A DNA stretch of 64,000 nucleotides, taken from positions 2,613,501-2,677,500 of the forward strand of contig NZ_OY781114.1 in the NCBI RefSeq assembly GCF_963676485.1, written 5' to 3'. Under the pieces are notes generated by a model that worked only from the letters and a program-made list of their open reading frames with translations, was not told where the DNA came from and did no database searches. A program made the position numbers and the translations under genes. This document shows, one piece after another, positions 2,074 to 16,170 of this stretch (the first letter of the stretch is position 1; the number at the start of each line of letters is the position of its first letter). This stretch comes from an uncultured Cohaesibacter sp. (GTDB taxonomy: Bacteria; Pseudomonadota; Alphaproteobacteria; Rhizobiales; Cohaesibacteraceae).

Positions 2074-5000
2074 TTAATTTCTCTGCTTGGGCCAGATAAA
2101 ACGGAATGTGGTGCCCGGCTCTTTTGACGGGTCTGACAGGATCGTTAGCGTGCCGCCAATGGATTCAATGGCCTTTTTGACCAAGGCAAGCCCCATGCCG
2201 TTTCCGGGAACCTTGTCCTTGCGTTCGAGCTTTCTGAAAGGCAGCAAGATCTTGCCATGATGCTTGGGGTCAATACCGGGGCCATCGTCAGAGACAGAAA
2301 AGGCCCAGGCGTCGCCCAGATCCTCTTGCCAGACTTTTACAATGCCATGGTCTTTGTCGTGATATTTGATTGCGTTTTCAATCAGATTGCGCAGCACCAG
2401 TAGCAAGGGCGCTCGGAAGGTGTGAATGGTCTCGTGTGGTAGATCGGTTTCAAAGCGGATGGCGTCGCTGCCATCCACGATGTCGAATATGTCCTGCAAA
2501 CTGACGGTCAGATTGATTTCTTCGGCTTCCTGAACATTCGAACCGGCCTTGGAATAGTCGGAGAGATCGGCAATCAGGCTGCCCAAATGTGAAATCTGGT
2601 CTTTCAGTCGATCAATATGCTCCTTGATCTCGGTTTGGATATTATCACTCAGATCTTCCTCGATCCAGGTTGCCGTATGCTGGATGGCGCGCAGCGGTCC
2701 TGCCAGATCATGGCTGATGATATGGGTAAACTGATTGAGATTATCATTGATGAGCTTCAGTTCCTGATTTTGCGCTTCCAGTTCCTTTTCAGCTCGCACC
2801 CTGTCTGACACATCGGCCAGCACGGTGCGTGTCTGCTCGATGCCCCTGCCGTCTGCTACAATGATGGTAGACATTTCGACATCTATGATGTCGCCATCCT
2901 TCTTGACCATTTGGAACGGAACATTTTCGGCCTGCTTGCTCCTGTTCGTTTCGGGCAACACCACCTCACAGGCATATTGTCTGGAGGCCTCGGTCAAGAA
3001 GTCTTCCCAATGGTGGTCGATGACTTCCTCGCGTTCATAGCCCAGTGTTGTGAGCCATTCTTCATTGGCCTCAACGATGATGCCATCCTTGTTGAGGGAA
3101 TGCATGATGACCGGTGTTTCCATATAGAGTTGGCGGAACCGCTTTTCTTCTTCCATGAAGAGATTATTGAGCATTTCCAGCTTCTCTTGCTGATCCTGCC
3201 GAAACAGTTCATAGCCGATCCAGTCGGCAATGCGATCAACAATCGGCTGATAGTTTTCCAGATAGCTTTTGTTGATCGGGAACTTGGACGCGAAGAGAAT
3301 TGCTCCGTTCATCGCGCCATTGCTCATGAAGGGAGCGCCGATGACCGTTTGATAGCCTTGAGAATGGAATATGTCCGAGGTTCTGACAATGCAGTCGATG
3401 AAATCATCCCGATGAGGGGAGCCGTCATCAGAAGCCTTGCTATGCTGGCAAGACACGCAAGGGGTTGTGAAGGTTTGCCCGATCGAGAGCGCGCCCTTTT
3501 CAATCCCGATTAGGTTATCGATTTCTATCTGCTGATTTTCAAAGCTGATCTTTAGTGCCGCTGTCAGGCGCGAAACCTCTGATACGCGGGATAGAATCTG
3601 CTCGACCTTGTCGTTGAAGTCGAGGCCGGTATGGGCGGCTATGCGGTTGAATTCGCCAATCAGATTTTCCCGCTCGACAATCTCCGTCACATTATGCAGG
3701 ACTATCTGGATTTCAAAAATCGTTCCATGTTCGTCTCGCAGGATATTGAAGCGGGATTGCAGCCACTTTCTGGTCTTGTCCGCTTGTTCGAATTCCCATT
3801 CGAAAGAGACATCCTGTTCCGGATTTTCTATGGCATTGATCAGATCGTCTTTATGCGGTGCTTTTAAAAGACTCTTGAAAAGAATCCCTTTTGTCTGATC
3901 TGGTTCGAGGTTGAAAAAGGCACAAAAGGCACTGTTGGCATAGGTGATGGTTGTGTCGGGTTTGAAACGACAAATGAGATCGCTCTGTAGATCAACCAGA
4001 GCCTTGTAGAACTCGCGCTCCTGACGCACGCGCTCCTGAGCGCGCTTCAATTCGTCGACTTCGATCACAGTGATAACTGCGCCGGTCGTGGTGTCCTGTT
4101 CTGTCTTATAGGGTAGAATATTGAGCAGATAGACAATGCCGTCACATTCAACCTCTCTGGAATGCTCGGTGCTTCTGGAGATGGTTTGCAGTGTCTGTTC
4201 CAGCAAATCCGTGCTGTCGAAGCGACTGGTGACATGGCCAATCGGACGTCCGACATCGTGTGGCATAAGGTTGAATGCCTTGGTTGATGCTGGTGTGAAG
4301 CGCCGTATCCTTGCCTCCTCATCGAGGAAGACGGTTCCTATCTGCGTGCTCCGCAGCAGATTTTCCATGTCGTCCGTCAATTCTGTCAATTCGACAATCT
4401 TGCGCTGATGTTCGGCACTGACGGTATAGAGTTCTTCGTTGACCGAATGAAGCTCCTCATTCGTGCTCTGGAGTTCTTCGTTGGATGCGGTCAGCTCTTC
4501 GTTTGTGGCCTGTAGCTCCTCGTTGCTTGCTTCCAGCTCCTCAATGGTGGTCTGAAGACTTTCGCCTGTCGAGCGGAGTTCGTTTTCCAACTCCGCGATC
4601 CTGTTGGTGTAGATTTCCTCATTTTCCAGCTTTGGCGCATTGGGGTTTTTGATCGTGCTTTGGGAAGGAATTGCCTTTCTTTCTTCCAATGTAATCAGCA
4701 GGAAAATGTTGTGGCTTTCTACAGTCAGTATCCTGGTGACGCGGATGGTCACGCGGGTCGGATTGTCTTTGAGATCCTTTATCTGAATGGAGCGTTCGAA
4801 TTCCGGCTCATGACTGAGCGTCATGGCGCGTTCGACACCGTCTGTGATTGCGAGCCGGAGATCCTGCTGCACCAGATCCACGATGCGATTGCTGAAAATA
4901 CCTTTTCGCACCTGCAGGAACTTGTCTGCATTGCCAAAGACATGCATCAATTCGCCCTGCTCATTGACCAGAAATCCTGTTGGCGCGTAACGCTCAAGAA

Positions 5001-6753
5001 CCCTGTCATAGGCGTTATAGAGGGCTTGTCGGGCAAGGCTTTCCCTTTTGGCCACTGCGAGGTTGTGTGCGCGCGTGTCTCTTAGAGACAGCTCGTCCTC
5101 CATGCCCTCTCTGGAGCGAGATGTGGCTGGAAGCAGGAAGGCTGCATCCCGGATCTGGCTATTGCGTATTTTTTGAAAAATGCGCCATCTCTTGTCGATG
5201 GAATGGAACTCGTTGTCTAGATTGCCCACGGTCTCGCTTGATCCAAGAAACAGATAACCTTTATCCTTGAGGGCAAAATGGAAGAGTGACAGCACCTTGC
5301 GCTGTGCTAATTCATTAAAATAAATCAACAGATTGCGACAGGTTATGAGGTCGATTTTCGTGAAGGGTGGGTCTTTGAGCAGGTTCTGCGTCGAGAAGAC
5401 CACCTTGCGCCGGAGGCTCTTCTTCACCTGATAGCGGTTGTCGACATAATTGAAATAGTCTTCAAGGAGTGGCTCAGGGATATGAGCGACGCTCTCTGCG
5501 TTATAGCTGCCTTCCGCCGCAATGCCGAGCGACTTGAAATGGATGTCGGTTGCGAAAACTTTCAAATTGGGTGTGATGCCGTTGCGTTTGGCGATTTCGC
5601 TAACCAATATGGCAATGGAATAGGGCTCCTCACCGGTTGCGCAACCGGGCACCCAGATGCGGATTTGTCTTTCCTCTGACATATCTGCGACAAGCTTTGA
5701 GAGAACCTTCGTTTCGAGAGCTTCGAAGGCGCCTTTGTCCCTGAAGAATTCCGTGACACCGATCAGCAAGTCGCAATAAAGGGTGTCCATCTCGTCCTTG
5801 TCAAACAGCAGGCTCTCGCAATATTTATCAAGGCTGGGTTCGCGCTTGAGCAGAGCGCGGCGTTGGATCCTGCGATGGATTGTAGCATTCTTGTAGAACG
5901 TGAAATCCGTGCCATAAGACTTTTGCAAGATGCTCAGAATGCGGGCTTCAGGATTGTCTGCATCGATTGCTTCCGGCTCCGGGCGGGGGACTTTAGAGCC
6001 ACTGACCACTGCTTTGATGATTTCCGGCATGTCTTTGACGTCGGCCACATAGGCGGTGGGGATGGTGTCGATGACCTTGCGGGGCATGGAATCAAATTTT
6101 GCCGTGGAGGACTCTTGGGCAATGACGACGCCACCATTCTGGACGATTTGCAAGCTGCCCCTGGTGCCGTCAGATCCTGTCCCCGACAAGATAATCCCAA
6201 TGGCATGCTCGCCTTCTTCCTTGGCCAAAGAAGAGAAAAAGGCATCAATGGGCATGCTCAGCATATTGTTGTCTGGATAGGCCTTCGTAGACAGTTTGCC
6301 ATTTTCTATCGATAGTTCAGTTCTGGGGGGATTGAGATAGATGACATTGGGTTCGATCTCCATCTGATCTTCCGCATGTACAATGCGCATATGCGTGTGG
6401 CGTGCGATCAGCTGATCCATCATCGATTGGAAATTGGGGGAGAGGTGCTGAATGATAACAAATGCCACATTTGGCTTTGTGGGCAAGGCATCGAAAAACT
6501 GTTCTATGGGCTCCAGCCCGCCAGCGGATGCGCCGATTGCGACAACCCGGATCGTCCTGTTCGTTTCAGGTGCTTCAGGCGCTTCTGTCTCTGAGGCCTG
6601 ATGTTTGGTGTCCTCTGCTTGCGGACTGGCTACTTGCGCGGGTTTATCGTCTGCTGGCTGTGCAGAAGGAGCAGAGATATCTTGCTTGTCTGCCTTGCCA
6701 GCTTCTTGTGCCTTTGTCGCAGAAAGCTTTTTTGAATCAGTATCTTTACTCAT
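2074..6753 (-). CDS. CheB-CheR-PAS-GAF-histidine kinase fusion
   Basis: A 1,559-residue multidomain protein. After a low-complexity leader comes a CheB methylesterase domain (about 66-255) with the triad S76 (GASAGG), H103 (QHLSP) and D195 (GTGSDGT). A CheR methyltransferase (about 270-535) follows, with the SAM loop VPGCATGEEPYS near 368-379. Next are a PAS-like segment, a regular coiled coil (about 715-800) built on repeated NEEL units, PAS domains near 800-910 and 930-1040, a GAF-like segment, another PAS near 1245-1370, and a HisKA/HATPase core with FTHIISHDLAGPLR, ENAIKYH, DDGPG and GNGMGLAL. Receptor-modification enzymes are thus joined to a kinase. ATG at 6753 is chosen because GGGGAAGGA precedes it by a good distance; a TTG 18 bases upstream is the alternative. 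It converges on the receiver gene ending at 2057. Confidence 0.92.
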   Translation of the reverse strand: MSKDTDSKKLSATKAQEAGKADKQDISAPSAQPADDKPAQVASPQAEDTKHQASETEAPEAPETNRTIRVVAIGASAGGLEPIEQFFDALPTKPNVAFVIIQHLSPNFQSMMDQLIARHTHMRIVHAEDQMEIEPNVIYLNPPRTELSIENGKLSTKAYPDNNMLSMPIDAFFSSLAKEEGEHAIGIILSGTGSDGTRGSLQIVQNGGVVIAQESSTAKFDSMPRKVIDTIPTAYVADVKDMPEIIKAVVSGSKVPRPEPEAIDADNPEARILSILQKSYGTDFTFYKNATIHRRIQRRALLKREPSLDKYCESLLFDKDEMDTLYCDLLIGVTEFFRDKGAFEALETKVLSKLVADMSEERQIRIWVPGCATGEEPYSIAILVSEIAKRNGITPNLKVFATDIHFKSLGIAAEGSYNAESVAHIPEPLLEDYFNYVDNRYQVKKSLRRKVVFSTQNLLKDPPFTKIDLITCRNLLIYFNELAQRKVLSLFHFALKDKGYLFLGSSETVGNLDNEFHSIDKRWRIFQKIRNSQIRDAAFLLPATSRSREGMEDELSLRDTRAHNLAVAKRESLARQALYNAYDRVLERYAPTGFLVNEQGELMHVFGNADKFLQVRKGIFSNRIVDLVQQDLRLAITDGVERAMTLSHEPEFERSIQIKDLKDNPTRVTIRVTRILTVESHNIFLLITLEERKAIPSQSTIKNPNAPKLENEEIYTNRIAELENELRSTGESLQTTIEELEASNEELQATNEELTASNEELQSTNEELHSVNEELYTVSAEHQRKIVELTELTDDMENLLRSTQIGTVFLDEEARIRRFTPASTKAFNLMPHDVGRPIGHVTSRFDSTDLLEQTLQTISRSTEHSREVECDGIVYLLNILPYKTEQDTTTGAVITVIEVDELKRAQERVRQEREFYKALVDLQSDLICRFKPDTTITYANSAFCAFFNLEPDQTKGILFKSLLKAPHKDDLINAIENPEQDVSFEWEFEQADKTRKWLQSRFNILRDEHGTIFEIQIVLHNVTEIVERENLIGEFNRIAAHTGLDFNDKVEQILSRVSEVSRLTAALKISFENQQIEIDNLIGIEKGALSIGQTFTTPCVSCQHSKASDDGSPHRDDFIDCIVRTSDIFHSQGYQTVIGAPFMSNGAMNGAILFASKFPINKSYLENYQPIVDRIADWIGYELFRQDQQEKLEMLNNLFMEEEKRFRQLYMETPVIMHSLNKDGIIVEANEEWLTTLGYEREEVIDHHWEDFLTEASRQYACEVVLPETNRSKQAENVPFQMVKKDGDIIDVEMSTIIVADGRGIEQTRTVLADVSDRVRAEKELEAQNQELKLINDNLNQFTHIISHDLAGPLRAIQHTATWIEEDLSDNIQTEIKEHIDRLKDQISHLGSLIADLSDYSKAGSNVQEAEEINLTVSLQDIFDIVDGSDAIRFETDLPHETIHTFRAPLLLVLRNLIENAIKYHDKDHGIVKVWQEDLGDAWAFSVSDDGPGIDPKHHGKILLPFRKLERKDKVPGNGMGLALVKKAIESIGGTLTILSDPSKEPGTTFRFIWPKQRN

Positions 6754-7224
6754 ATTCAATCCTTCCCCCAAGGAATGAAAACCAAGACCCGTGCTGTAAA
6801 TCCGTGTCTTGACCTGCTTTTCTGGAATTGATGCAAAAAGGCAGTTTTATCTAGGCATATCTGACGCTTAGGGAAAAGGTTAGCACTAAATTGACCATAG
6901 TTAAATATGCTTATGCATCTCATGGTTGCTTTATGGAGGATTTTTATTTTGCCAAGGTTGTATATTTTCTAAATAGGGAAGATCAGCTTCTTGAAATTCT
7001 CGGCCAATAGAGGCTGTTGGCATGGTCCATCGATAATCATTTTCGTTTTTCTATGCAGAATCCCTGGCAACTTTCTTTGGCAGGTGGAGGTCTCGCCAAA
7101 GGCGAGCCGTTCCTTGCGCTGCTAGCTGACAAGTGCTTGCCCCTTTGGGCCTTTCTGTATCTTGACGAAGGATGGCTTTGCCAACATCCTTGTGTGCTTG
7201 AGGGAAGCAAAGGGGGGGAGCTTT
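6754..7224. promoter_or_regulatory. divergent promoter region between two signalling genes
   Basis: A gap of 471 bases between the minus-strand giant kinase and the plus-strand short kinase, so it should contain divergent promoters. An FNR/FixK-like near-palindrome TTGAC-CATA-GTTAA lies at 6891-6904, one mismatch from TTGAY-N4-RTCAA. The element may be chance. No gene was recognised here; open frames in it are short and composition-poor. Confidence 0.4.
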
Positions 7225-7914
7225 ATGACAGAGCAGGAAGAGGGCGATGCCTTTTCAACTGGGCAACGCATGGAGGCACGCTACGAGCTCAGTCGGCGGA
7301 TAGCCCATGATACGAAGGCACCTATCCGGCAAATTGCACAACTGACCGAGATCCTGGTGGCTGAAAATTCCGGCTCGCTTGATGAGGATGCACTTTCCAT
7401 CCTGAGCATGGTGCAAGACAAGGCCCGGCATCTGGGTGAGATGACACAAGCCGTGCGCGATTACACTGATGCCATGTGCAAGCCGCTTGCTGTTCAGAGG
7501 ATCGACTTCACAGTGCTCTTGAAGGCAGAAATAGAATCACTCCAATTCGAAAATATCCTTTTCAAATGTGAAAATCCGATCTTCGTGAACGCCGATCCCC
7601 AATTTTTACGGCGGGTTGTTCAACAGCTCTTGAACGTGGTTTCTATTGACCCTTCTGGACGTAAAACCGGAGACGTGACGATTGCCGTCCATGGTGCAGA
7701 GACTTCAGCCACCCATATCGCTTTGATATTCTCTCCCTGCAGCATTGATTTTACGGGGAAACTCCCTTTGACAGGGCTTGCGCAGTATAAGTCGGCAAAC
7801 CTCTTCGAACTTCTTTCTATTTCTGAGTGTAGTGAGATTTTGCTCCGGCATGGCTGGACAATCTACATGGAGAAGACCGATGCAGAGACGCTCGAAATGA
7901 ATATCTGTTTGTGA
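7225..7914 (+). CDS. short histidine kinase-like protein with decayed ATPase half
   Basis: A 229-residue protein beginning with a dimerisation and phosphoacceptor segment: RRIAHDTKAPIRQ contains H28 in an H-box-like setting. The C-terminal half aligns in layout with a HATPase domain (LRRVVQQLLNVVS resembles an N-box) but lacks recognisable G1 and G2 glycine motifs, so ATP binding is doubtful. The ATG at 7225 follows a strong AGGGGGGGAG ribosome binding site; an upstream TTG at 7162 lacks one. It lies 58 bases before a receiver-containing gene on the same strand, probably one transcript. It may act as a phosphotransfer or regulatory partner rather than as a kinase. Confidence 0.7.
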   Translation: MTEQEEGDAFSTGQRMEARYELSRRIAHDTKAPIRQIAQLTEILVAENSGSLDEDALSILSMVQDKARHLGEMTQAVRDYTDAMCKPLAVQRIDFTVLLKAEIESLQFENILFKCENPIFVNADPQFLRRVVQQLLNVVSIDPSGRKTGDVTIAVHGAETSATHIALIFSPCSIDFTGKLPLTGLAQYKSANLFELLSISECSEILLRHGWTIYMEKTDAETLEMNICL

Positions 7915-7972
7915 TTTGCAGATTTTTATCTATCCTTTTCTGGACCGATATTCTGATCACGGGGGCTTTCAG

Positions 7973-9172
7973 ATGTGTGCGGCCTGGATGAACGATTCTC
8001 AGGGAATGGCGAGCGAACTCGAGCGGATATCTCAAGTCGCTGGAGAGGAGATTCATCTTTCTTGTCTTTTGCTGGATGATGATCCGATTGACAGACGCTA
8101 TGTGCATTGGTTGTTGCAACAGCTCGCGGGGTTCCGGTTTAATGTCACCTTTGCCGACAGCTTGAATGAGGCCAAGCGGCTTTGCTCGGAAAAACGCTTT
8201 GATCTTTATCTCTTCGATTACTGGATGGGGGAAGATTCCTCTGCTTCCCTTGTTTCTTTCTTGAGGGAAGAGGGGGACAATGCTGGAACGATTGTCGTCC
8301 TATCATCGCTGGACGATGCGTCCTTTCAGGATGTCAGCCTCAAGTCGGGCGCGGACATGTTTCTGGCCAAGCAGGAGCTTTCGGCCAAGACCCTTGAACG
8401 GATGCTGCGCAACATTGCCCAGATCGCATCCAATGCCCGCTTGCAATATCATCAGAAGCAGCTGGATGCAGACAAGATTGGCGGCTGGCTGAAGCATGTC
8501 AATGGCGGGCTTGATCAGTCCCACGGCTTTGCCGTTCTGGCTCTGGATGCGCTCAAGGCCGGGCGCGGGCAAGAGGCTGAACACCTGATTTCAGATGCGC
8601 TCGAGCAGATTGCCGCCTTGCGCAATGAAGTGTCCTATGTCGGTGTCGGCATGTCCATGCTGAACAAGGAGAGCGCACTCAATCTCAGGCCGTTTGACGT
8701 CAGCTCGATCTTGACCGAGGTGGTTGAGGACTGTCGCTTCGAGGCGGAACAATTCGGCAAGACGCTCAATTTCTGTGAGCATGTGTCGGATTCGATTGTC
8801 CTCAGTGATGAAGGGCTGCTCAAGGAGCTGTTGTTTGTCTTGCTACGCGGTGCCGTGCGCTATTCAGGCGAAAGGACCGATGTCGCTGTGAGCTACGAGC
8901 TTGGCCCTGAGGCTTTGGTTGTTTATATCTCCGAGTTCGGCTCGGCAGAGGATCATGGGTTGGATCTTCGCAAATTTGATGTTTCGGGCACCATCAGTCT
9001 GGCCTATCTGTTTGGAACAGAAAGGGCGGGCAGTCTTTTGGTGGCCGAACATATCCTGCAAATACTTGGCGGCGACTGGTCGGTTGGCTATGCGAACCGC
9101 AATCTTGAAATACGCTGCCGGATTCCTCTCAATGTAGACCTCTTGTCGGATGACAGCTCGGGCCAGCCATGA
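7973..9172 (+). CDS. receiver fused to a degenerate histidine kinase module
   Basis: A 399-residue relative of the protein at 397-1617. The receiver is intact: LDDDP at 34-38, D82 within FDYWMGE, and K133. The aromatic-rich D-x-W-x-G signature after the phospho-Asp matches DFWVG in the first copy. The region corresponding to the H-box (WLKHVNGGLDQSHG) does not match the canonical H-E/D-L-R-T-P motif. The N-box is VLLRGAVRYSG without the usual Asn pair, and the G1 and G2 glycines are lost (SEFGSAED, GSLLVAE). The output is therefore probably non-enzymatic. The ATG at 7973 follows a GGGGG run; a TTG at 7916 is possible. It converges on the hydrogenase gene ending at 9197. Confidence 0.72.
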   Translation: MCAAWMNDSQGMASELERISQVAGEEIHLSCLLLDDDPIDRRYVHWLLQQLAGFRFNVTFADSLNEAKRLCSEKRFDLYLFDYWMGEDSSASLVSFLREEGDNAGTIVVLSSLDDASFQDVSLKSGADMFLAKQELSAKTLERMLRNIAQIASNARLQYHQKQLDADKIGGWLKHVNGGLDQSHGFAVLALDALKAGRGQEAEHLISDALEQIAALRNEVSYVGVGMSMLNKESALNLRPFDVSSILTEVVEDCRFEAEQFGKTLNFCEHVSDSIVLSDEGLLKELLFVLLRGAVRYSGERTDVAVSYELGPEALVVYISEFGSAEDHGLDLRKFDVSGTISLAYLFGTERAGSLLVAEHILQILGGDWSVGYANRNLEIRCRIPLNVDLLSDDSSGQP

Positions 9173-9196: not shown

Positions 9197-11056
9197 CTAA
9201 TACTGCATCGAGCTCATGGACAGACTGTCCCAGATTTCCTTCACCGTATGCTGAAGATCCTTGCGGCGGTCTTCATAATGGGTGTGCAACAGGTGATGGG
9301 CTTTTTCCGAGTTGGGGGCTTCAAGGAAATCCCTGTAGAGAGCCTGAACCTGCAGATTCTTGTGCGACTGGCGCACATTGGTTTTGCGGTCGACATTATA
9401 AATGGTTTCCCGCCGCGCCATGGCGAGAGGCAGATAGGCCTTTTTGGAGCGCAAGGAGCCGCCGCCGTCGACGCAGCCTCCCGGACAGGCCATGACTTCT
9501 ATGAAATCATAATCGGCTTTGCCAGCACGGACCATTTCGACCAGCTTGCGCGTGTCGCCCAGCCCGTGCACCATGGCCACCTTGACCGAGCCGATCGGGC
9601 CGCCCAGATCGACCATTGCCTCACGCACGCCTTCAAAGCCACGCAACTGTGTGAGCTCTACCTTATCGAGTTCCTTGCCGTTGACTACCGAATAGATGGT
9701 CCGCACCGCCGCTTCCATGACACCGCCCGTGGTGCCGAAAATGGCTGCTGCTCCGGAATATTCACTCATGTAGGGATTGTCGAAGCTGGAGGGCTTGATG
9801 GTCTTGAGATCAATCCCCTCGCGCCGCAGAAGGCGAGCAAATTCGCGCGTGGTCAGCACCACGTCCGTATCCTGCTTGCCGGCTTCTCCCAATTGTGGGC
9901 GGGCTGCTTCGTCCTTCTTGGCGATGCAGGGCATGATGGAGATGACACGGATTGTTTCCGCCTCGATTTCCTGCTTTTCGGGCAGATAGGCTTTGGCGAT
10001 GGTAGAGAGCACCTGCTGGGGTGACTTGGTTGAAGACAGGAGCGGCAGGATATCGGGATAGTGGGTTTCTGCGAAATTGATCCATGCGGGACAGCAGGAG
10101 GTGAAGGTCGGCTTGCGGCCCTCCTTGAGGCGAGCGAGCAATTCGGTGCCTTCTTCCATGATGACAACGTCAGCGGCGAAATTGGTGTCGAGCACGATAT
10201 CGACGCCGATCTTGCGGCAAGCGGCAATCACCTGCCCCTCAACATTCGTGCCCGCAGGCATGCCGAACTCTTCCCCGAAGGCAACGCGCACGGCTGGAGC
10301 GAATTGGACCACCGTGGTGATAGCGGGATCGCAGATATAATCGAGCGCCTTGTCGATCTCGTCTCTCTCGCCCAGAGCGCCTGTGGGGCAGACCAGAACG
10401 CACTGGCCGCAGGAGACGCAGATATTGCTCATCGGGTCGTTGCCATCACGCAAGGCTACGACGCGGTCATTGCCGGTGCCTTCCATGACAAGGGCATCGA
10501 TGCCCTGATGATCGCGGCAAATGGCGACGCATCGTTGACAGCGGATGCAGCGGCGCATGTCACGTATCATGGATGTGGATGCTTCATCCACCGGACGGCT
10601 TTCAGCAAGATCCCGATCAAAGAAGCGGTTTTCCGAAAGGCCCACATATTGGGCGACATCCTGCAATTCGCAATCGCCATGGCGAATGCAGGTGGCGCAA
10701 TCCTGCAGATGGTCTGCCATGAGCAGCTCGACCTGGAGCTTCTGCATGTCCCGGGCTTTTTTGGACCGGGTCTGGACGGTCATGCCTTCTCGGACAGGGG
10801 TGTTGCAGGACGTGACGATCTGCGCGCCCTTGTGCTTTGAATGGGTAATCTCCACCACGCAGACACGGCATGTGCCCGGCGTGTGATCGATGTCATCCAG
10901 TTCGCACAAGGTGGGGATGTAGATATCATGGCGTCTTGCGCATGACAGGATGGTCTCGTTGGGAAAGGCCATGCATGGCTTGTTGTTGATTTCAAGCGAG
11001 ATGGTTGCTTCGGCGGGGTTGCGTCCGGCATGGCTGACAGGTTCAGTGATGCACAT
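9197..11056 (-). CDS. hydA: [FeFe]-hydrogenase catalytic subunit, group A (A2-like)
   Basis: A 619-residue iron-only hydrogenase that interconverts protons and H2. The N-terminus has a NuoG-like [2Fe-2S] domain (C51, C63, C66, C84), a His-Cys [4Fe-4S] site (H116, C120, C123, C129) and two [4Fe-4S] clusters (C170/173/176/180 and C213/216/219/223). The H-cluster signatures are all present: TSCCPAW (C321 as likely proton-relay Cys, C322), MPCIAKKDE (C377) and EVMACPGGC (C524, C528). The last 60 residues carry the small-subunit-like tail with SEKAHHLLHTHY. There is no signal peptide, so it is cytoplasmic. It starts three bases after the stop of the oxidoreductase partner. HydE, HydF and HydG, needed for H-cluster assembly, are not in this window. 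Confidence 0.95.
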   Translation of the reverse strand: MCITEPVSHAGRNPAEATISLEINNKPCMAFPNETILSCARRHDIYIPTLCELDDIDHTPGTCRVCVVEITHSKHKGAQIVTSCNTPVREGMTVQTRSKKARDMQKLQVELLMADHLQDCATCIRHGDCELQDVAQYVGLSENRFFDRDLAESRPVDEASTSMIRDMRRCIRCQRCVAICRDHQGIDALVMEGTGNDRVVALRDGNDPMSNICVSCGQCVLVCPTGALGERDEIDKALDYICDPAITTVVQFAPAVRVAFGEEFGMPAGTNVEGQVIAACRKIGVDIVLDTNFAADVVIMEEGTELLARLKEGRKPTFTSCCPAWINFAETHYPDILPLLSSTKSPQQVLSTIAKAYLPEKQEIEAETIRVISIMPCIAKKDEAARPQLGEAGKQDTDVVLTTREFARLLRREGIDLKTIKPSSFDNPYMSEYSGAAAIFGTTGGVMEAAVRTIYSVVNGKELDKVELTQLRGFEGVREAMVDLGGPIGSVKVAMVHGLGDTRKLVEMVRAGKADYDFIEVMACPGGCVDGGGSLRSKKAYLPLAMARRETIYNVDRKTNVRQSHKNLQVQALYRDFLEAPNSEKAHHLLHTHYEDRRKDLQHTVKEIWDSLSMSSMQY

Positions 11057-11059
11057 GGC

Positions 11060-13057
11060 TCAGGCCGCTCCTTCAGGGATGGAATGCTTGGTGATGACCG
11101 AATAGAGGCGATAGCAGCGCATGCAGCGCTGCGCCTCTGTGTAGGCGTCTTCCAGACTGATGGTCTGTTCCACCTCGCCGAACATCTTCTTGCGCAAGTC
11201 CGGATCAAGGGCGGGATTATGCACGCGGTAGCCGTTGCGTACCGGTGTTTCGACCGCGTCATTGGCAAGGAAGGCATTCTCGTTGATCAACTCCCTCATA
11301 CGGGAGCGCTTGAAGAAGCGCGGTGTGCCAAACTGGATCCAGTCGTCAATGCTGCGCGCCGCTTTCAGCCCTGCCGACATGGCATAGATGAGGGTGGAAG
11401 GGCCGGTGACGCAGTCGCCTCCAGCAAACACGCCGGGTCTGGATGTGGTCAGGGACTTGTCCGCCTCCACGCATTTCCATTTGTTGAAGTCGATGCCTTC
11501 CTCTGCGATGATTTCCTGACTTTCCACCTGCTGGCCAATGGCCGCGATAAAAGTCGTGCAGGGCATGACATGTTCCGTTCCGGGGATGGGGCGCACCTTG
11601 CGCCGTCCGCTTTCGTCCGGTTCGGTTTCTTCCATGTGTACCAGCTCAATGCCGGTGATCTTGCCATTTTCGCTGAGAATGCGGGTTGGTGTGCACAGGG
11701 TGTGGAAGTCGATATCTTCCCTTTCGGCTTCTTCCACCTCTTCGGTATCGGCAGGCATGGCGTCGCGGGTGCGGCGATAAATCAGGTGTGCATTGTCGGC
11801 CCCCAGACGCACAGCCGAGCGGACACAATCCATGGCAACATTGCCGCCACCGACCACCACCACGTCGCCCTTGAGCTGGAAGGTGTCTATGCCATCCACA
11901 TGATCATGGACTTTGAGCAGGAAATCGATGCCTGTGAAATAGCCCTCCCGAACCTTCTCTTCATTTTTGAGACCAAGCATCGTGCCTTCCTGACAGCCAA
12001 GCCCGAGGAACACGGCCTTGTAACCGCGCTGGAAGAGATCGTCGATGGTGAAGTCGGTCCCCAGTTGCTGGCCAAACAGGAACCGTCCACCCAGATCGAC
12101 AATGATGTCGGTTTCCATGGCAAGGGTATCCTTGGGCAGGCGATAATTGGGAATACCGATCTGGGCCATGCCACCTGCTTTGTCCTGCTTTTCAAATACA
12201 TCCACATGATAACCATGCAGCAGCAGATGATAGGCGCAGGAAATTCCTGCGGGCCCTGCTCCGACAACGGCGACTTTCATGCCGTCTGCGAGCGGCTTCT
12301 GGATCATTTCGCGGGTGAATTTAAGCGCATGCGGGCCCTTTTGCTGGTCGGCGACGAAGCGCTTGAGGGTCTTGATGCCCACCGCTTCATCGACGAATTT
12401 GCGCCGACAGGCCTGTTCGCAATATCGCACGCAGACACGACCGCATGTGGCGGCCATGGGATATTTCTGCAAAAGGACACCCAGCGAGTTTTCCGGCTTT
12501 CCATCGCGGATATAATCAATATAGCGCGGCACATTGACCTTGGACGGGCAGGCCTCAATGCAGGGGGCGGTCATGTAGGCCATGCCGTGCTGAGCGCGGA
12601 TTGGCATATGATCGGCCACTTCCTTTTCGATCTGCTCACGGAAGTGATGGATGACCTCCAGAAGGGCGATGCAACAGGTTTGTCCCAGCCCACAAAGGGA
12701 GGTTTCTTTCATCTGGTTGGCGAGCATTTCGATGTCGTCGAAATCGAGCGGCGTATCAAGGCCGCGTCGCATCTTGTCCAGCGCGTCCCGTATCAGCACA
12801 GTGCCCATGCGGCAGGGCGTGCAGGCGCCGCAGGATTGTTCTGCCGCCTTGTTGATGTAATGGAAAAGCCCTTCGACCAGACTGACGGTTTCATCAAAGA
12901 CGAAAAAACCCCTGTCTGCGAAAAAGGCGCGGACAGCGTTTCCTTCATCGAATTCATCGAAATTTTGCAAGGCTGCGAGCGGGGTGTCATGGCCGGGCAA
13001 ATTGCGCCGTGCATCATGAACAACCCCATCCCAAACGCCATACACCACTTGTGTCAC
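11060..13057 (-). CDS. NuoF-stub/GltD-type NAD(P)H oxidoreductase, hydrogenase partner
   Basis: About 665 residues. The first ~100 resemble only the C-terminal cluster-binding end of NuoF (SCGACTPCRMG and a downstream CGLGQTCC); the FMN and NADH part of NuoF is missing. The rest is a GltD-like module: an N-terminal Fe-S half-domain (ATCGRVCVRYCEQACRR), an FAD Rossmann fold (VVGAGPAGIS), a pyridine-nucleotide fold (VVGGGNVAMD) and the FAD-closing motif FAGGDCVTGPS, ending in a Cys pair (RCMRC). It probably passes electrons between NAD(P)H and the hydrogenase encoded three bases downstream. The GTG at 13057 has GGGGG upstream and is preferred; an ATG at 13123 adds an unlikely Cys-rich leader. 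Gene order supports HydDB group A2, called glutamate synthase-linked. Confidence 0.85.
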   Translation of the reverse strand: MTQVVYGVWDGVVHDARRNLPGHDTPLAALQNFDEFDEGNAVRAFFADRGFFVFDETVSLVEGLFHYINKAAEQSCGACTPCRMGTVLIRDALDKMRRGLDTPLDFDDIEMLANQMKETSLCGLGQTCCIALLEVIHHFREQIEKEVADHMPIRAQHGMAYMTAPCIEACPSKVNVPRYIDYIRDGKPENSLGVLLQKYPMAATCGRVCVRYCEQACRRKFVDEAVGIKTLKRFVADQQKGPHALKFTREMIQKPLADGMKVAVVGAGPAGISCAYHLLLHGYHVDVFEKQDKAGGMAQIGIPNYRLPKDTLAMETDIIVDLGGRFLFGQQLGTDFTIDDLFQRGYKAVFLGLGCQEGTMLGLKNEEKVREGYFTGIDFLLKVHDHVDGIDTFQLKGDVVVVGGGNVAMDCVRSAVRLGADNAHLIYRRTRDAMPADTEEVEEAEREDIDFHTLCTPTRILSENGKITGIELVHMEETEPDESGRRKVRPIPGTEHVMPCTTFIAAIGQQVESQEIIAEEGIDFNKWKCVEADKSLTTSRPGVFAGGDCVTGPSTLIYAMSAGLKAARSIDDWIQFGTPRFFKRSRMRELINENAFLANDAVETPVRNGYRVHNPALDPDLRKKMFGEVEQTISLEDAYTEAQRCMRCYRLYSVITKHSIPEGAA

Positions 13058-13123
13058 AGTGACCCCCGTCGCGCAGAATAACCAACATAAGCAGGAAGGT
13101 GCCGAAGCTTGGCTGCAGAGCAT

Positions 13124-13607: not shown

Positions 13608-14621
13608 ATGCTTTTACAATCCGACAGACAGCTTGATCGGCGCTCTTTGCTCAAATGGGCTGGATGGCTGGCCGCTGCGGGGACGCCCTTTCTTCCTGGG
13701 TGCCTTTCGGCCCGTGCCGCTTCGGGCGGCCTGACTCTTTGGGGCATTCCGGCTTCCCCTTCTGCAGTCTTTGCCCGGGCGGTGGCTTCGGGTGCTTTGG
13801 ATCACATCGCTCCGGATATGCGGTTTGCTGTTTGGAAGAGCACTGACCAGATGCGGGCGGGCATTGTTTCTGGTGATTTCAAGCTGTTTGCGACCTCCAC
13901 CTATGCTGCCGCCAATTTCTTCAATCGCGGAGCAGGCACGGTGATGCTCAATGTGGTGACTTGGGGTGTCCTCTATGTAATGGCGCGCGAGGAGGGCATA
14001 ACCAAAATCGAGGATCTGGCGGGCAAGCGGGTTTTATTGTCGAACAAGAATGAGGCGCCCGACCTGTTGTTCCGCCTTGTGCTCACATGGGCGGGAATGG
14101 ATCCGGACAAGGATGTCATTCTGGACTATGTCGGATCGCCGGGAGAAGCGGTGCCGCTTTATCTTGCAGGGCGCGGCGATGTGGCTCTGCTGCATGAACC
14201 AGCCTCCACGGCGGCGTTGTTTCGCGCCAGCAAGGCCGGGGTGCCGCTCTATCGCGCCATCGATATCACGGAGGTTTATGGCAACCATACAGGGCGGGGG
14301 CCGCGTATTCCGCAAGTGGGGTTGGCAGTCAATCCGGCCTTTCTTGAGGAACAGCCTGAGATTGTTGCTGCCGTTCATCAGGCCTGTGTCGATGCGGGAG
14401 AATGGACAAGGGCCAACTGGGGGGCAGCAGGGAAGCTGGCGGCGCACTCGCTGCCCTTGCCTGCGCCGGTGATCGCCCAGTCGCTACCCTATGTGCATCT
14501 GGATGTACAATCGGCCAAAGAGGCGCGGGCTGATATCGACCTCTATTTCGAGCATCTCATGAGCCTTGATCCGGGCATCATTGGTGGCAAGATGCCTTCA
14601 TCGGGCTTTTACTGGGGGTAA
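13608..14621 (+). CDS. ABC importer substrate-binding protein (SsuA/TauA/NMT1 type), Tat lipoprotein
   Basis: A 337-residue periplasmic binding protein. The N-terminus has a twin-arginine motif (DRRSLLK, 10-16), a hydrophobic stretch and a lipobox LPGC, so it is probably exported folded and lipidated. The body follows the SsuA/NMT1 layout, with ITKIEDLAGKRVLLSN as the typical hinge segment. An ATG with AAAAGGGAGGTTGGGAG upstream sets the start. It is followed by the permease and the ATPase in the usual order. Substrates of this family include sulfonates, nitrate, thiamine precursors and aromatic acids; the sequence does not tell which one applies here. It is divergent from the hydrogenase operon. 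Confidence 0.85.
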   Translation: MLLQSDRQLDRRSLLKWAGWLAAAGTPFLPGCLSARAASGGLTLWGIPASPSAVFARAVASGALDHIAPDMRFAVWKSTDQMRAGIVSGDFKLFATSTYAAANFFNRGAGTVMLNVVTWGVLYVMAREEGITKIEDLAGKRVLLSNKNEAPDLLFRLVLTWAGMDPDKDVILDYVGSPGEAVPLYLAGRGDVALLHEPASTAALFRASKAGVPLYRAIDITEVYGNHTGRGPRIPQVGLAVNPAFLEEQPEIVAAVHQACVDAGEWTRANWGAAGKLAAHSLPLPAPVIAQSLPYVHLDVQSAKEARADIDLYFEHLMSLDPGIIGGKMPSSGFYWG

Positions 14622-14624
14622 CGG

Positions 14625-15419
14625 GTGAGCAATCGCTACCAGAAACGCGCCAGACAGTTAAGACGCAGCCTGTTGTTTACTGCAGGGGTGTTGGTGATGC
14701 TGGCACTTTGGCAGATTGGGCATGACGCCTATGGTTCGCTCGTTCTGCCCGGAGTGGGCGAAACCTTTGTCATGCTTGGGCGGATGATCGGATCTGGTGA
14801 AGTGGTCGCAGCCCTTAAGGCCACGGCCTTCAATGCCCTTGCGGGCTGGAGCATCAGCGTGGTGATGGGCGTGATTGCCGGAGGAATAGCCGGGCGGTTC
14901 GAGATTGTGCGTTTTTTGCTTCAGCCGGTTTCCATCATTCTCATTGGCATTCCGGCGATTGCCTGGGTGGTGCTGGCGCTTTTGTGGTTCGGCGGTCGAT
15001 GGGCCGTGGTCTTTACGGTCGCGGTGGCTACTGCGCCGATGATTTTTGCCGCTGCAGTGCAGGCGGTGCGCAGCCTTGACGGAGATCTGGCGCGTATGGC
15101 GCGCGCCTTCAAGACCCCGCCGGGGGCGATGGTGCGTGACGTTTATGCGCCACACATGCTGGCCTATCTCTATCCGGCACTGGCCACAACGCTGGCCATG
15201 TCCTGGAAGGTCTCTATCATGGCCGAGTTGCTGTCCGGTTCTGGTGGCATTGGTGATGGCATTGCAGCGGCAAGGGCGCGGGTGGATACGGCGCAATTGC
15301 TGGCTTGGGTGGTCGTGGTTGTGATCATCCTGCTTGTGCTCGACCAGCTGCTGCTGAGCCTTGTGCGCGAGCGTATGCATGTTTGGCGCAGTCAGGAGGA
15401 AGGGGGCAGGCATGGATGA
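14625..15419 (+). CDS. ABC importer permease (SsuC/TauC type)
   Basis: A 264-residue inner-membrane permease of the binding-protein-dependent transport family with about six hydrophobic segments. The cytoplasmic EAA-type loop is visible as ARMARAFKTPPGAMVRDVYAPH, and the C-terminus has the family's GGIGDGIAAAR pattern. Translation starts at GTG 14625, three bases after the stop of the binding-protein gene, with GGGGGTAACG upstream. Its end overlaps the ATPase gene by eight bases. It forms the channel of the importer with the proteins on either side. Confidence 0.88.
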   Translation: MSNRYQKRARQLRRSLLFTAGVLVMLALWQIGHDAYGSLVLPGVGETFVMLGRMIGSGEVVAALKATAFNALAGWSISVVMGVIAGGIAGRFEIVRFLLQPVSIILIGIPAIAWVVLALLWFGGRWAVVFTVAVATAPMIFAAAVQAVRSLDGDLARMARAFKTPPGAMVRDVYAPHMLAYLYPALATTLAMSWKVSIMAELLSGSGGIGDGIAAARARVDTAQLLAWVVVVVIILLVLDQLLLSLVRERMHVWRSQEEGGRHG

Positions 15420-16170
15420 TCGTCTGCTCACGCTTGAAGCTGTCGACTTTGCTTATGACAAAGAGCCGGTGCTGTCGGGCATTGCTCTTCGCGTTGGCAA
15501 GCGGCAAGTGGTGGCGCTGATGGGGCCTTCGGGCTGCGGCAAGACAACGCTGCTTTCCTTGATCCTGAGGGAGCTGCATCCCGATGCGGGCCGCATCGAG
15601 TGGGCTGCAGAGCGCCTTTCTGTGATGTTCCAGGATCCGCTGTTGCTGCCGTGGCGCACCGTCCTTGACAATGTCGCGTTCGCCCTGAAGGGGCAGATCG
15701 CATCACGCGAGAAGCGGGAAGAAAAGGCATCAGCGATGCTGAAGGCGGTTGGGTTGCCTGAAGAGCATTTTCGGCAGTTCCCCCACCAGCTTTCCGGAGG
15801 CATGCGCCAGCGGGTGTCGTTGGCGCGGGCGCTTGTTGTCGAGCCGGATATGCTGCTGCTTGATGAACCGTTCCATGGGCTCGATTTCAATCTGGTGCAA
15901 CAGATGCAGGCCCTGCTGCGCAGCCATGTAAATGAGCGCGGGATGGGGCTTTTGATGGTGACCCATGATGCGCGCCATGCCGCTGCGATGGCAGACGAGA
16001 TTCTCGTTCTGTCTTCAGGGCCTGCATGCGTCATGGCCCGCTTTGATGCGCGTTTCTATGATGCTAAGGGAGAGAGCGCTGTTCCCTCCCATCTGCTGTT
16101 GGCCGATGAGATAGAGCAAGCCTTCATGGGGCCTATCAAAGGATGCTCCGTGCGCCGCCAAAAAGCATGA
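15412..16170 (+). CDS. ABC importer ATPase (SsuB/TauB type)
   Basis: A 252-residue ATP-binding subunit with Walker A GPSGCGKTT, the signature LSGGMRQRVSLARA, Walker B MLLLDEPF and the switch histidine in VTHD. The ATG at 15412, behind AGGAAGGGGGCAGG, is preferred over an upstream in-frame codon at 15361 because it begins exactly at the family N-terminus and overlaps the permease stop. It energises the importer encoded by the two preceding genes. Its 3' end overlaps the convergent TauE-family gene by 35 bases. Confidence 0.92.
   Translation: MDDRLLTLEAVDFAYDKEPVLSGIALRVGKRQVVALMGPSGCGKTTLLSLILRELHPDAGRIEWAAERLSVMFQDPLLLPWRTVLDNVAFALKGQIASREKREEKASAMLKAVGLPEEHFRQFPHQLSGGMRQRVSLARALVVEPDMLLLDEPFHGLDFNLVQQMQALLRSHVNERGMGLLMVTHDARHAAAMADEILVLSSGPACVMARFDARFYDAKGESAVPSHLLLADEIEQAFMGPIKGCSVRRQKA

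Follow-up and report, generated by a model that had tools for sequence, protein, structure and literature searches.

The maturases HydE, HydF and HydG are considered to be the machinery dedicated to building the [2Fe] subcluster of [FeFe]-hydrogenases. In PMC4967309, Rhodospirillum rubrum is described as having such a hydrogenase without maturase genes, and complete maturase sets are reported for Pleomorphomonas and Phaeospirillum. The HydDB rule for group A2, as worded in PMC5037454, specifies a downstream protein with a GltA/GltD domain and without NuoF, and the role of this group is given there as undetermined. The locus considered here lies in a 64,000-nucleotide stretch of contig NZ_OY781114.1 from an uncultured Cohaesibacter sp. 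(the window). It consists of hydA, encoding the catalytic subunit of a group A [FeFe]-hydrogenase, and a gene for a GltD-like partner flavoprotein. Our preferred reading, to which we assign a probability of about 0.5, is that these genes encode a working NAD(P)H-linked hydrogenase with an H-cluster made without HydEFG.

HydA is composed of NuoG-like N-terminal Fe-S domains, the H-cluster domain and the small-subunit tail. It matches the Pfam domains Fe_hyd_lg_C (300.7 bits, cut-off 22.1) and Fe_hyd_SSU (75.7 bits, cut-off 24), as well as Fer2_4 and NADH-G_4Fe-4S_3, and scores above the curated cut-off of the group A family TIGR02512 (518.3 versus 405.95 bits). All three H-cluster motifs are present, TSCCPAW at residue 319, MPCIAKK at 375 and MACPGGC at 522, and the N-terminal cluster motifs are a His-Cys stretch at residue 116 and CxxCxxCxxxC stretches at 170 and 213. 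The complete group A enzyme proposed in a sequence-only reading of this DNA is thus borne out, with all motifs and domains intact. The nearest solved chains by sequence are HydA1 of 7q4v (500 bits) and the electron-bifurcating HydA1 of 8a6t (496 bits). The protein is 95% identical to the C. marisflavi hydrogenase (genome G018, the same as G005), and it is the only Fe_hyd_lg_C protein in the window's genome (5.08 Mb, 2 contigs, 96.7% complete).

Profile searches of this genome for the maturases were negative. HydE and HydG have no matches at E 0.001, and all ten HydF matches are below the cut-off, the best of them (79.2 versus 325.55 bits) being to the GTPase part. The searches covered 18 Cohaesibacter genomes and, from 80 related loci, 50 loci (isolates first) in 49 genomes; the 80 loci are the best relatives ranked by similarity and so are biased to near kin. 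The hydrogenase is carried by 13 of the 18 Cohaesibacter genomes, six of the 13 being single contigs of 98-100% completeness. None of the 18 contains HydG over the cut-off (weak matches in 14, best 31.4 versus 312 bits), HydE over the cut-off (weak matches in 16, best 57.6 versus 254.6 bits) or the HydF-specific tetramer domain. Among the 49 genomes of related loci HydF was found in 26, HydE in the same 26 and HydG in 24 of these, the exceptions being the metagenome-assembled genomes (MAGs) of loci L036 and L073; in the other 23 HydE, HydF and HydG are all absent over the cut-off. Three genomes common to both samples (same match coordinates, identical proteins) were counted once, which gives 33 distinct hydrogenase-bearing genomes without the three maturases over the cut-off. 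Complete maturase sets were found in Pleomorphomonas and in genomes titled Magnetospirillum molischianum and fulvum, which we take to be Phaeospirillum. The sequence-only reading had expected the enzyme to be active, with hydEFG to be sought elsewhere in the genome; that lookup was negative, and activity does not follow from the motifs alone.

One possibility is that maturases do exist, but are too divergent to be recognized or are encoded in unassembled sequence. The window's assembly is slightly short of complete, there is no completeness figure for the 23 genomes from related loci, and one radical S-adenosylmethionine (SAM) protein of the window's genome is unassigned. However, all three maturases are missing together over the cut-off in the 33 genomes, the six nearly complete single contigs included; of the 49 relatives, 26 give both HydF and HydE over the cut-off in the same searches; and the HydG model is silent in the window's genome even at the permissive threshold given above. 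We therefore consider this explanation improbable. The window's genome has 14 radical-SAM matches, 12 of them with named functions. The remaining two are L146, from the PA0069 family of unknown function, and L148. The latter (L148:916-2502, near position 836795 of C1 in the window's genome) is a protein of 528 residues with only the generic Pfam domain and no NCBIfam match at E 1e-20. The genome also encodes three glycyl-radical activases, one of them for pyruvate formate-lyase, and so anaerobic metabolism of the host is plausible. Weak paired HydE/HydG-like matches, which we presume to resemble CofG/CofH or fused FbiC, occur in other Cohaesibacter and Rhodoplanes-type genomes and also in the hydrogenase-less genomes G002, G007 and G009; there are none in the window's genome.

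HypD is needed for the Fe(CN)2CO unit of [NiFe] enzymes, and HypCD was considered as a general source of this unit. HypD is present in 8 of the 13 hydA-bearing Cohaesibacter genomes and in 17 of the 23 maturase-less genomes of related loci; it was not found in the window's genome (G000), in the single-contig genomes G011 and G014 or in G021, which contains the Rhodopseudomonas pentothenatexigens locus. This candidate was rejected, as HypD is absent from 5 of the 13 (the window's own genome included) and from 6 of the 23. With no HypD in the window's genome, HydA there cannot borrow Fe(CN)2CO from HypCD. Clustering of neighbouring genes showed no gene common to the maturase-less loci besides the two of the operon; the crude calling of open reading frames used in it missed even the partner in 6 of 23 loci.

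The active site was compared at 16 HydA residues by CpI equivalence, the mapping being read off the structure-chain alignment. We take these positions, in CpI numbering, to be cubane ligands, residues lining the [2Fe] pocket or proton carriers. The maturase-less set has 34 rows (31 distinct proteins) and the maturase-bearing set 26 rows. Fifteen of the 16 residues are invariant in all 34 maturase-less rows, namely A230, P231, E279, E282, C299, C300, S319, Q325, M353, C355, K358, F417, M497, C499 and C503. The sixteenth, the R286 equivalent, is Arg in 33 rows and His in one. The label of C300, the second Cys of TSCCPAW, needs care: this position is Ser in all six outgroup hydrogenases. Other motif positions vary in the same rows (HydA residue 319 is T in 27 and S in 7; 378 is I, T or V). 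In the H domain, 135 of the 285 columns are invariant in the maturase-less rows and the window, and so mere similarity of the rows does not account for the fixed residues.

The hydA gene is under strong purifying selection. The ratio of nonsynonymous to synonymous substitution rates (dN/dS, method NG86) is 0.031-0.055 in five close Cohaesibacter pairs, these values being approximate at dS of 0.8-1.1. A single wider pair gave 0.113; four further pairs without maturases fall at 0.073-0.207, and four pairs with maturases at 0.075-0.259. All 13 copies in the genus have an open frame of 620 codons with no internal stop. Thus it is scarcely credible that hydA is a decaying relic left after the loss of hydEFG. 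Such a loss is in itself plausible, as maturases are found in sister lineages such as Pleomorphomonas. However, the intact frames, the probable movement of the operon between orders (see below) and above all dN/dS of 0.03-0.06 in the close pairs bring this explanation close to refutation.

The N-terminus of the partner is the C-terminal [4Fe-4S] domain of NuoF (PF10589, 77.4 bits). The GltD-like partner named in the sequence-only reading is thereby confirmed and extended, with a different start. Close homologues align only from residue 23, where the codon is GTG (13057-13055), and so this GTG is the likely start and the operon most likely spans 9197-13057 rather than reaching 13123. The partner lies upstream of hydA in the direction of transcription, on the same strand, with a gap of 3 bp. 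Since a homologue of the partner is present in all 80 related loci, the two genes form a stable unit. No full NuoF subunit was found in the operon: the TIGR01959 match to the partner covers only positions 308-410 of 410 (60.5 bits, cut-off 558.65). HydDB group A3 (bifurcating) is characterized by an adjacent protein with a NuoF domain. The score of HydA with NF040763 (group A6, NADH-dependent) is 718.9 bits, under the required 765.

In the tree of 52 hydrogenase proteins the maturase-less rows have three placements. Clade 1 (16 rows, 100/100) contains Cohaesibacter, Rhodovulum, Rhodopseudomonas, Tropicimonas, Aliiruegeria, Rhodobium and one MAG, and its sister (100/99) is formed by maturase-bearing Pleomorphomonas and Oryzibacter. 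Clade 2 (7 rows, 100/100) contains Rhodoplanes, Blastochloris, a Xanthobacteraceae bacterium and Rhodovulum sp. PH10. The third placement is the single MAG of locus L055. At least three changes of the maturase state are needed on this tree, two of them forced by strongly supported (starred) branches. Ala at HydA residue 237 was tried as a marker of maturase absence: it is found in all rows of both clades, and Val in all 26 maturase-bearing rows. This marker is spoiled by the maturase-less L055, which has Val, and by L050, which has Ala and hydF nearby, and the pattern was treated as a coincidence.

Hyphomicrobiales and Rhodobacterales are intermingled in the tree. Within Cohaesibacter the hydrogenase occurs in two lineages with 77-78% identity to each other, and the Cohaesibacter hydrogenase is 79% identical to that of Rhodovulum adriaticum (Rhodobacterales) and 78-80% identical to that of Rhodobium. 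As the lineages within the genus are no closer to each other than to Rhodovulum, transfer of the operon between orders, without maturases, is probable. As a caution, contamination of 8% is listed for the C. celericrescens genome (G001/G024); by identity, the second lineage is also seen in G004 and G015 (1%). These data lend support to the horizontal acquisition proposed from the sequence alone. As to the accompanying claim that such enzymes are uncommon in alphaproteobacteria, 48 of the 80 best relatives, a list ranked by similarity and biased to near kin, belong to Alphaproteobacteria, and so the enzyme is recurrent in this class.

According to the preferred reading, the product of the two genes would be a cytosolic [FeFe]-hydrogenase linked to NAD(P)H, in which the GltD-like flavin site, the Fe-S chain and the H-cluster exchange electrons. 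HydA would still carry the [2Fe] subcluster and act on H2, and the H-cluster would be assembled by a route without recognizable HydEFG. On this reading, Cohaesibacter and one or more further lineages of Alphaproteobacteria keep the enzyme without HydE, HydF and HydG. The argument is that the retained site, the selection, the two maturase-less clades and the probable movement together suggest that the chemistry of HydA needs the whole site. The simplest chemistry of this kind is H2 turnover by a complete H-cluster, and then the cluster would have to be built without recognizable HydEFG. The wider statement is more tentative, and we place it somewhat below even odds: Alphaproteobacteria may have HydEFG-independent assembly of an active H-cluster (in the window's genome also HypD-independent), in at least two lineages, carried between orders with the two-gene operon.

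Several points weigh against the preferred reading. The R. rubrum enzyme, according to PMC4967309, was considered in earlier studies to be probably inactive or to have a different role. For the maturase-less members treated here, no activity or spectroscopy was found. No replacement pathway was found among the 14 radical-SAM matches of the window's genome. Of the 15 invariant residues, 14 do not vary in the 26 maturase-bearing rows either (Q325 is Met in four), and so the invariance reflects retention only, not gain. Finally, the [2Fe] pocket could be kept for another ligand.

On the other hand, the site may work with the [4Fe-4S] part alone, HydA then being an NAD(P)H-linked electron-transfer or redox-sensing enzyme and no longer a hydrogenase. 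The searches for HydE, HydF and HydG left no visible source of the [2Fe] subcluster, and the inactivity or different role suggested for the R. rubrum enzyme points in the same direction. However, none of the 34 maturase-less rows departs from the others at the residues that we take to bind [2Fe] or to transfer protons, while variation is seen elsewhere in the motifs. This is the main rival of the preferred reading; it is the less likely of the two, but the lack of a visible replacement pathway leaves it considerable weight.

A second Fe_hyd_lg_C protein, fused to a methyl-accepting chemotaxis protein (chemoreceptor), was observed in a Cohaesibacter genome without maturases (L135:3218-5056, G012 contig 1). 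By eye, AQPCPAV, SPCISKK and NCAQGC replace TSCCPAW, MPCIAKK and MACPGGC, both glutamates are lost and most [2Fe]-site residues are changed, the cubane-type cysteines being kept. It may be a chemoreceptor related to the sensory hydrogenases. The protein was intended as a control for a site with the cubane alone. This control is weak, as sensory [FeFe]-hydrogenases with altered sites are described as being able to carry the H-cluster; the protein thus shows only that the positions can change.

The genes of the locus and its surroundings are listed in Table 1.

Table 1. Coordinates of the hydrogenase operon and neighbouring features in the window.
Feature	Coordinates	Strand	Evidence and remarks
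hydA, group A [FeFe]-hydrogenase catalytic subunit, 619 aa	9197..11056	minus	open full-length reading frame, profile matches, motifs
Partner: NuoF C-terminal [4Fe-4S], Fer4_20 and GltD-like FAD/NAD(P)H oxidoreductase, 665 aa (likely start)	11060..13057	minus	profile matches, homologue alignment
TTGATTTACCGCAA, candidate FixK/FNR-type palindrome TTGM-N6-KCAA	13233..13246	minus	consensus match; 17 matches in the whole window, weak alone
ABC transporter substrate-binding protein, SsuA/NMT1-like (below SsuA cut-off)	13608..14621	plus, divergent	twin-arginine-type start RRSLLKW by eye
ABC transporter permease	14625..15419	plus	profile match
ABC transporter ATPase, nearest to taurine type, below cut-off	15361..16170	plus	first codons perhaps over-extended

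The ATP-binding cassette (ABC) transporter next to the operon has a binding protein with a twin-arginine-type signal, which is unusual for this class. Homologous sulfonate/NMT1-type importers are encoded in the vicinity of the operon in 27 of the 80 related loci. Three arrangements occur: the importer lies upstream on the opposite strand in 14 loci, downstream on the same strand in 12 and upstream on the same strand in 1. All 16 rows of clade 1, the Cohaesibacter-Rhodovulum-Rhodopseudomonas clade, have it, the window included. This linkage could mean that HydA is matured with an H-cluster precursor taken up from outside, perhaps via this transporter. However, six of the seven maturase-bearing Pleomorphomonadaceae rows show the linkage too; it was not found near hydA in 6 of the 7 clade 2 rows (the exception is L038, at some 4 kb) or in G015 (L138); and the transporter profile resembles sulfonate importers. 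The linkage does not track the absence of maturases, and the transporter was rejected as an explanation, import of a precursor being very improbable. We read the importer as a functional neighbour of the hydrogenase.

A first scan of the upstream stretches showed no clear FNR site, and strict FNR and sigma-54 sites are not above chance within the window. In 5 of 7 Cohaesibacter loci, all but L017 and L138, the looser palindrome TTGM-N6-KCAA, which we take to be the FixK/FNR-type consensus, stands 184-190 bp ahead of the partner start. Among 50 upstream stretches, taken from 50 of the 80 loci, it occurs in 9, versus 40 of 2000 random ones, a comparison in which the pattern was picked after looking and near relatives inflate the count. 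This FixK/FNR-like candidate would fit low-oxygen expression, but the indication is weak. Beyond hydA, the minus strand encodes a CheB-CheR-PAS-histidine kinase fusion of 1565 residues (2074-6771), adjoining two small regulators (7162-9172). Homologues of this region are found beside the hydrogenase in L010 and L011.

A culturable bacterial group with the enzyme under tight selection, and with none of HydEFG found, offers a direct test of two options. One is a second route to an organometallic cluster carrying CO and CN; the other is that the H-cluster fold has a function unrelated to hydrogen for which the whole active site is preserved. Either answer bears on the maturase-less hydrogenases of protists and on the motif-only annotation of [FeFe]-hydrogenases as H2 enzymes. 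To our knowledge, Giardia and Entamoeba have hydrogenase genes without recognized HydEFG; in this they are similar to the locus described here and, unlike it, are eukaryotic.

The similarity to HydA1 of 7q4v and 8a6t spans nearly the whole length, from the N-terminal Fe-S domains to the small-subunit tail; in contrast to these systems, the operon here is without a full NuoF subunit. We take both solved enzymes to be matured by HydEFG and the 8a6t hydrogenase to belong to group A3. The second hydrogenases present in six related loci are only 37-38% identical, and we take them as A3-like. The placement in HydDB group A2 (glutamate synthase-linked, putative), suggested in the sequence-only reading, would agree with the GltD linkage. 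In each of the 80 related loci a group A subunit adjoins a flavoprotein of the GltD type; however, the partner is upstream rather than downstream and contains a piece of NuoF, and the window's genome has no maturases over the cut-off.

Among the matches listed in searches of the openly licensed literature, no description of a maturase-less clade or of the Cohaesibacter gene was found; older or subscription work may have one. Within the same limits, PMC4967309 was the only paper found to mention missing maturases in alphaproteobacteria. The absence in R. rubrum is thus already published, and neither its wider breadth nor the evidence of selection was met with in these matches. The R. rubrum enzyme is the closest parallel, being an alphaproteobacterial hydrogenase from a genome said, in PMC4967309, to be without maturase genes. 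Compared with that report, the absence here spans 33 genomes, in two clades and one MAG, and is accompanied by evidence from selection and from the active site.

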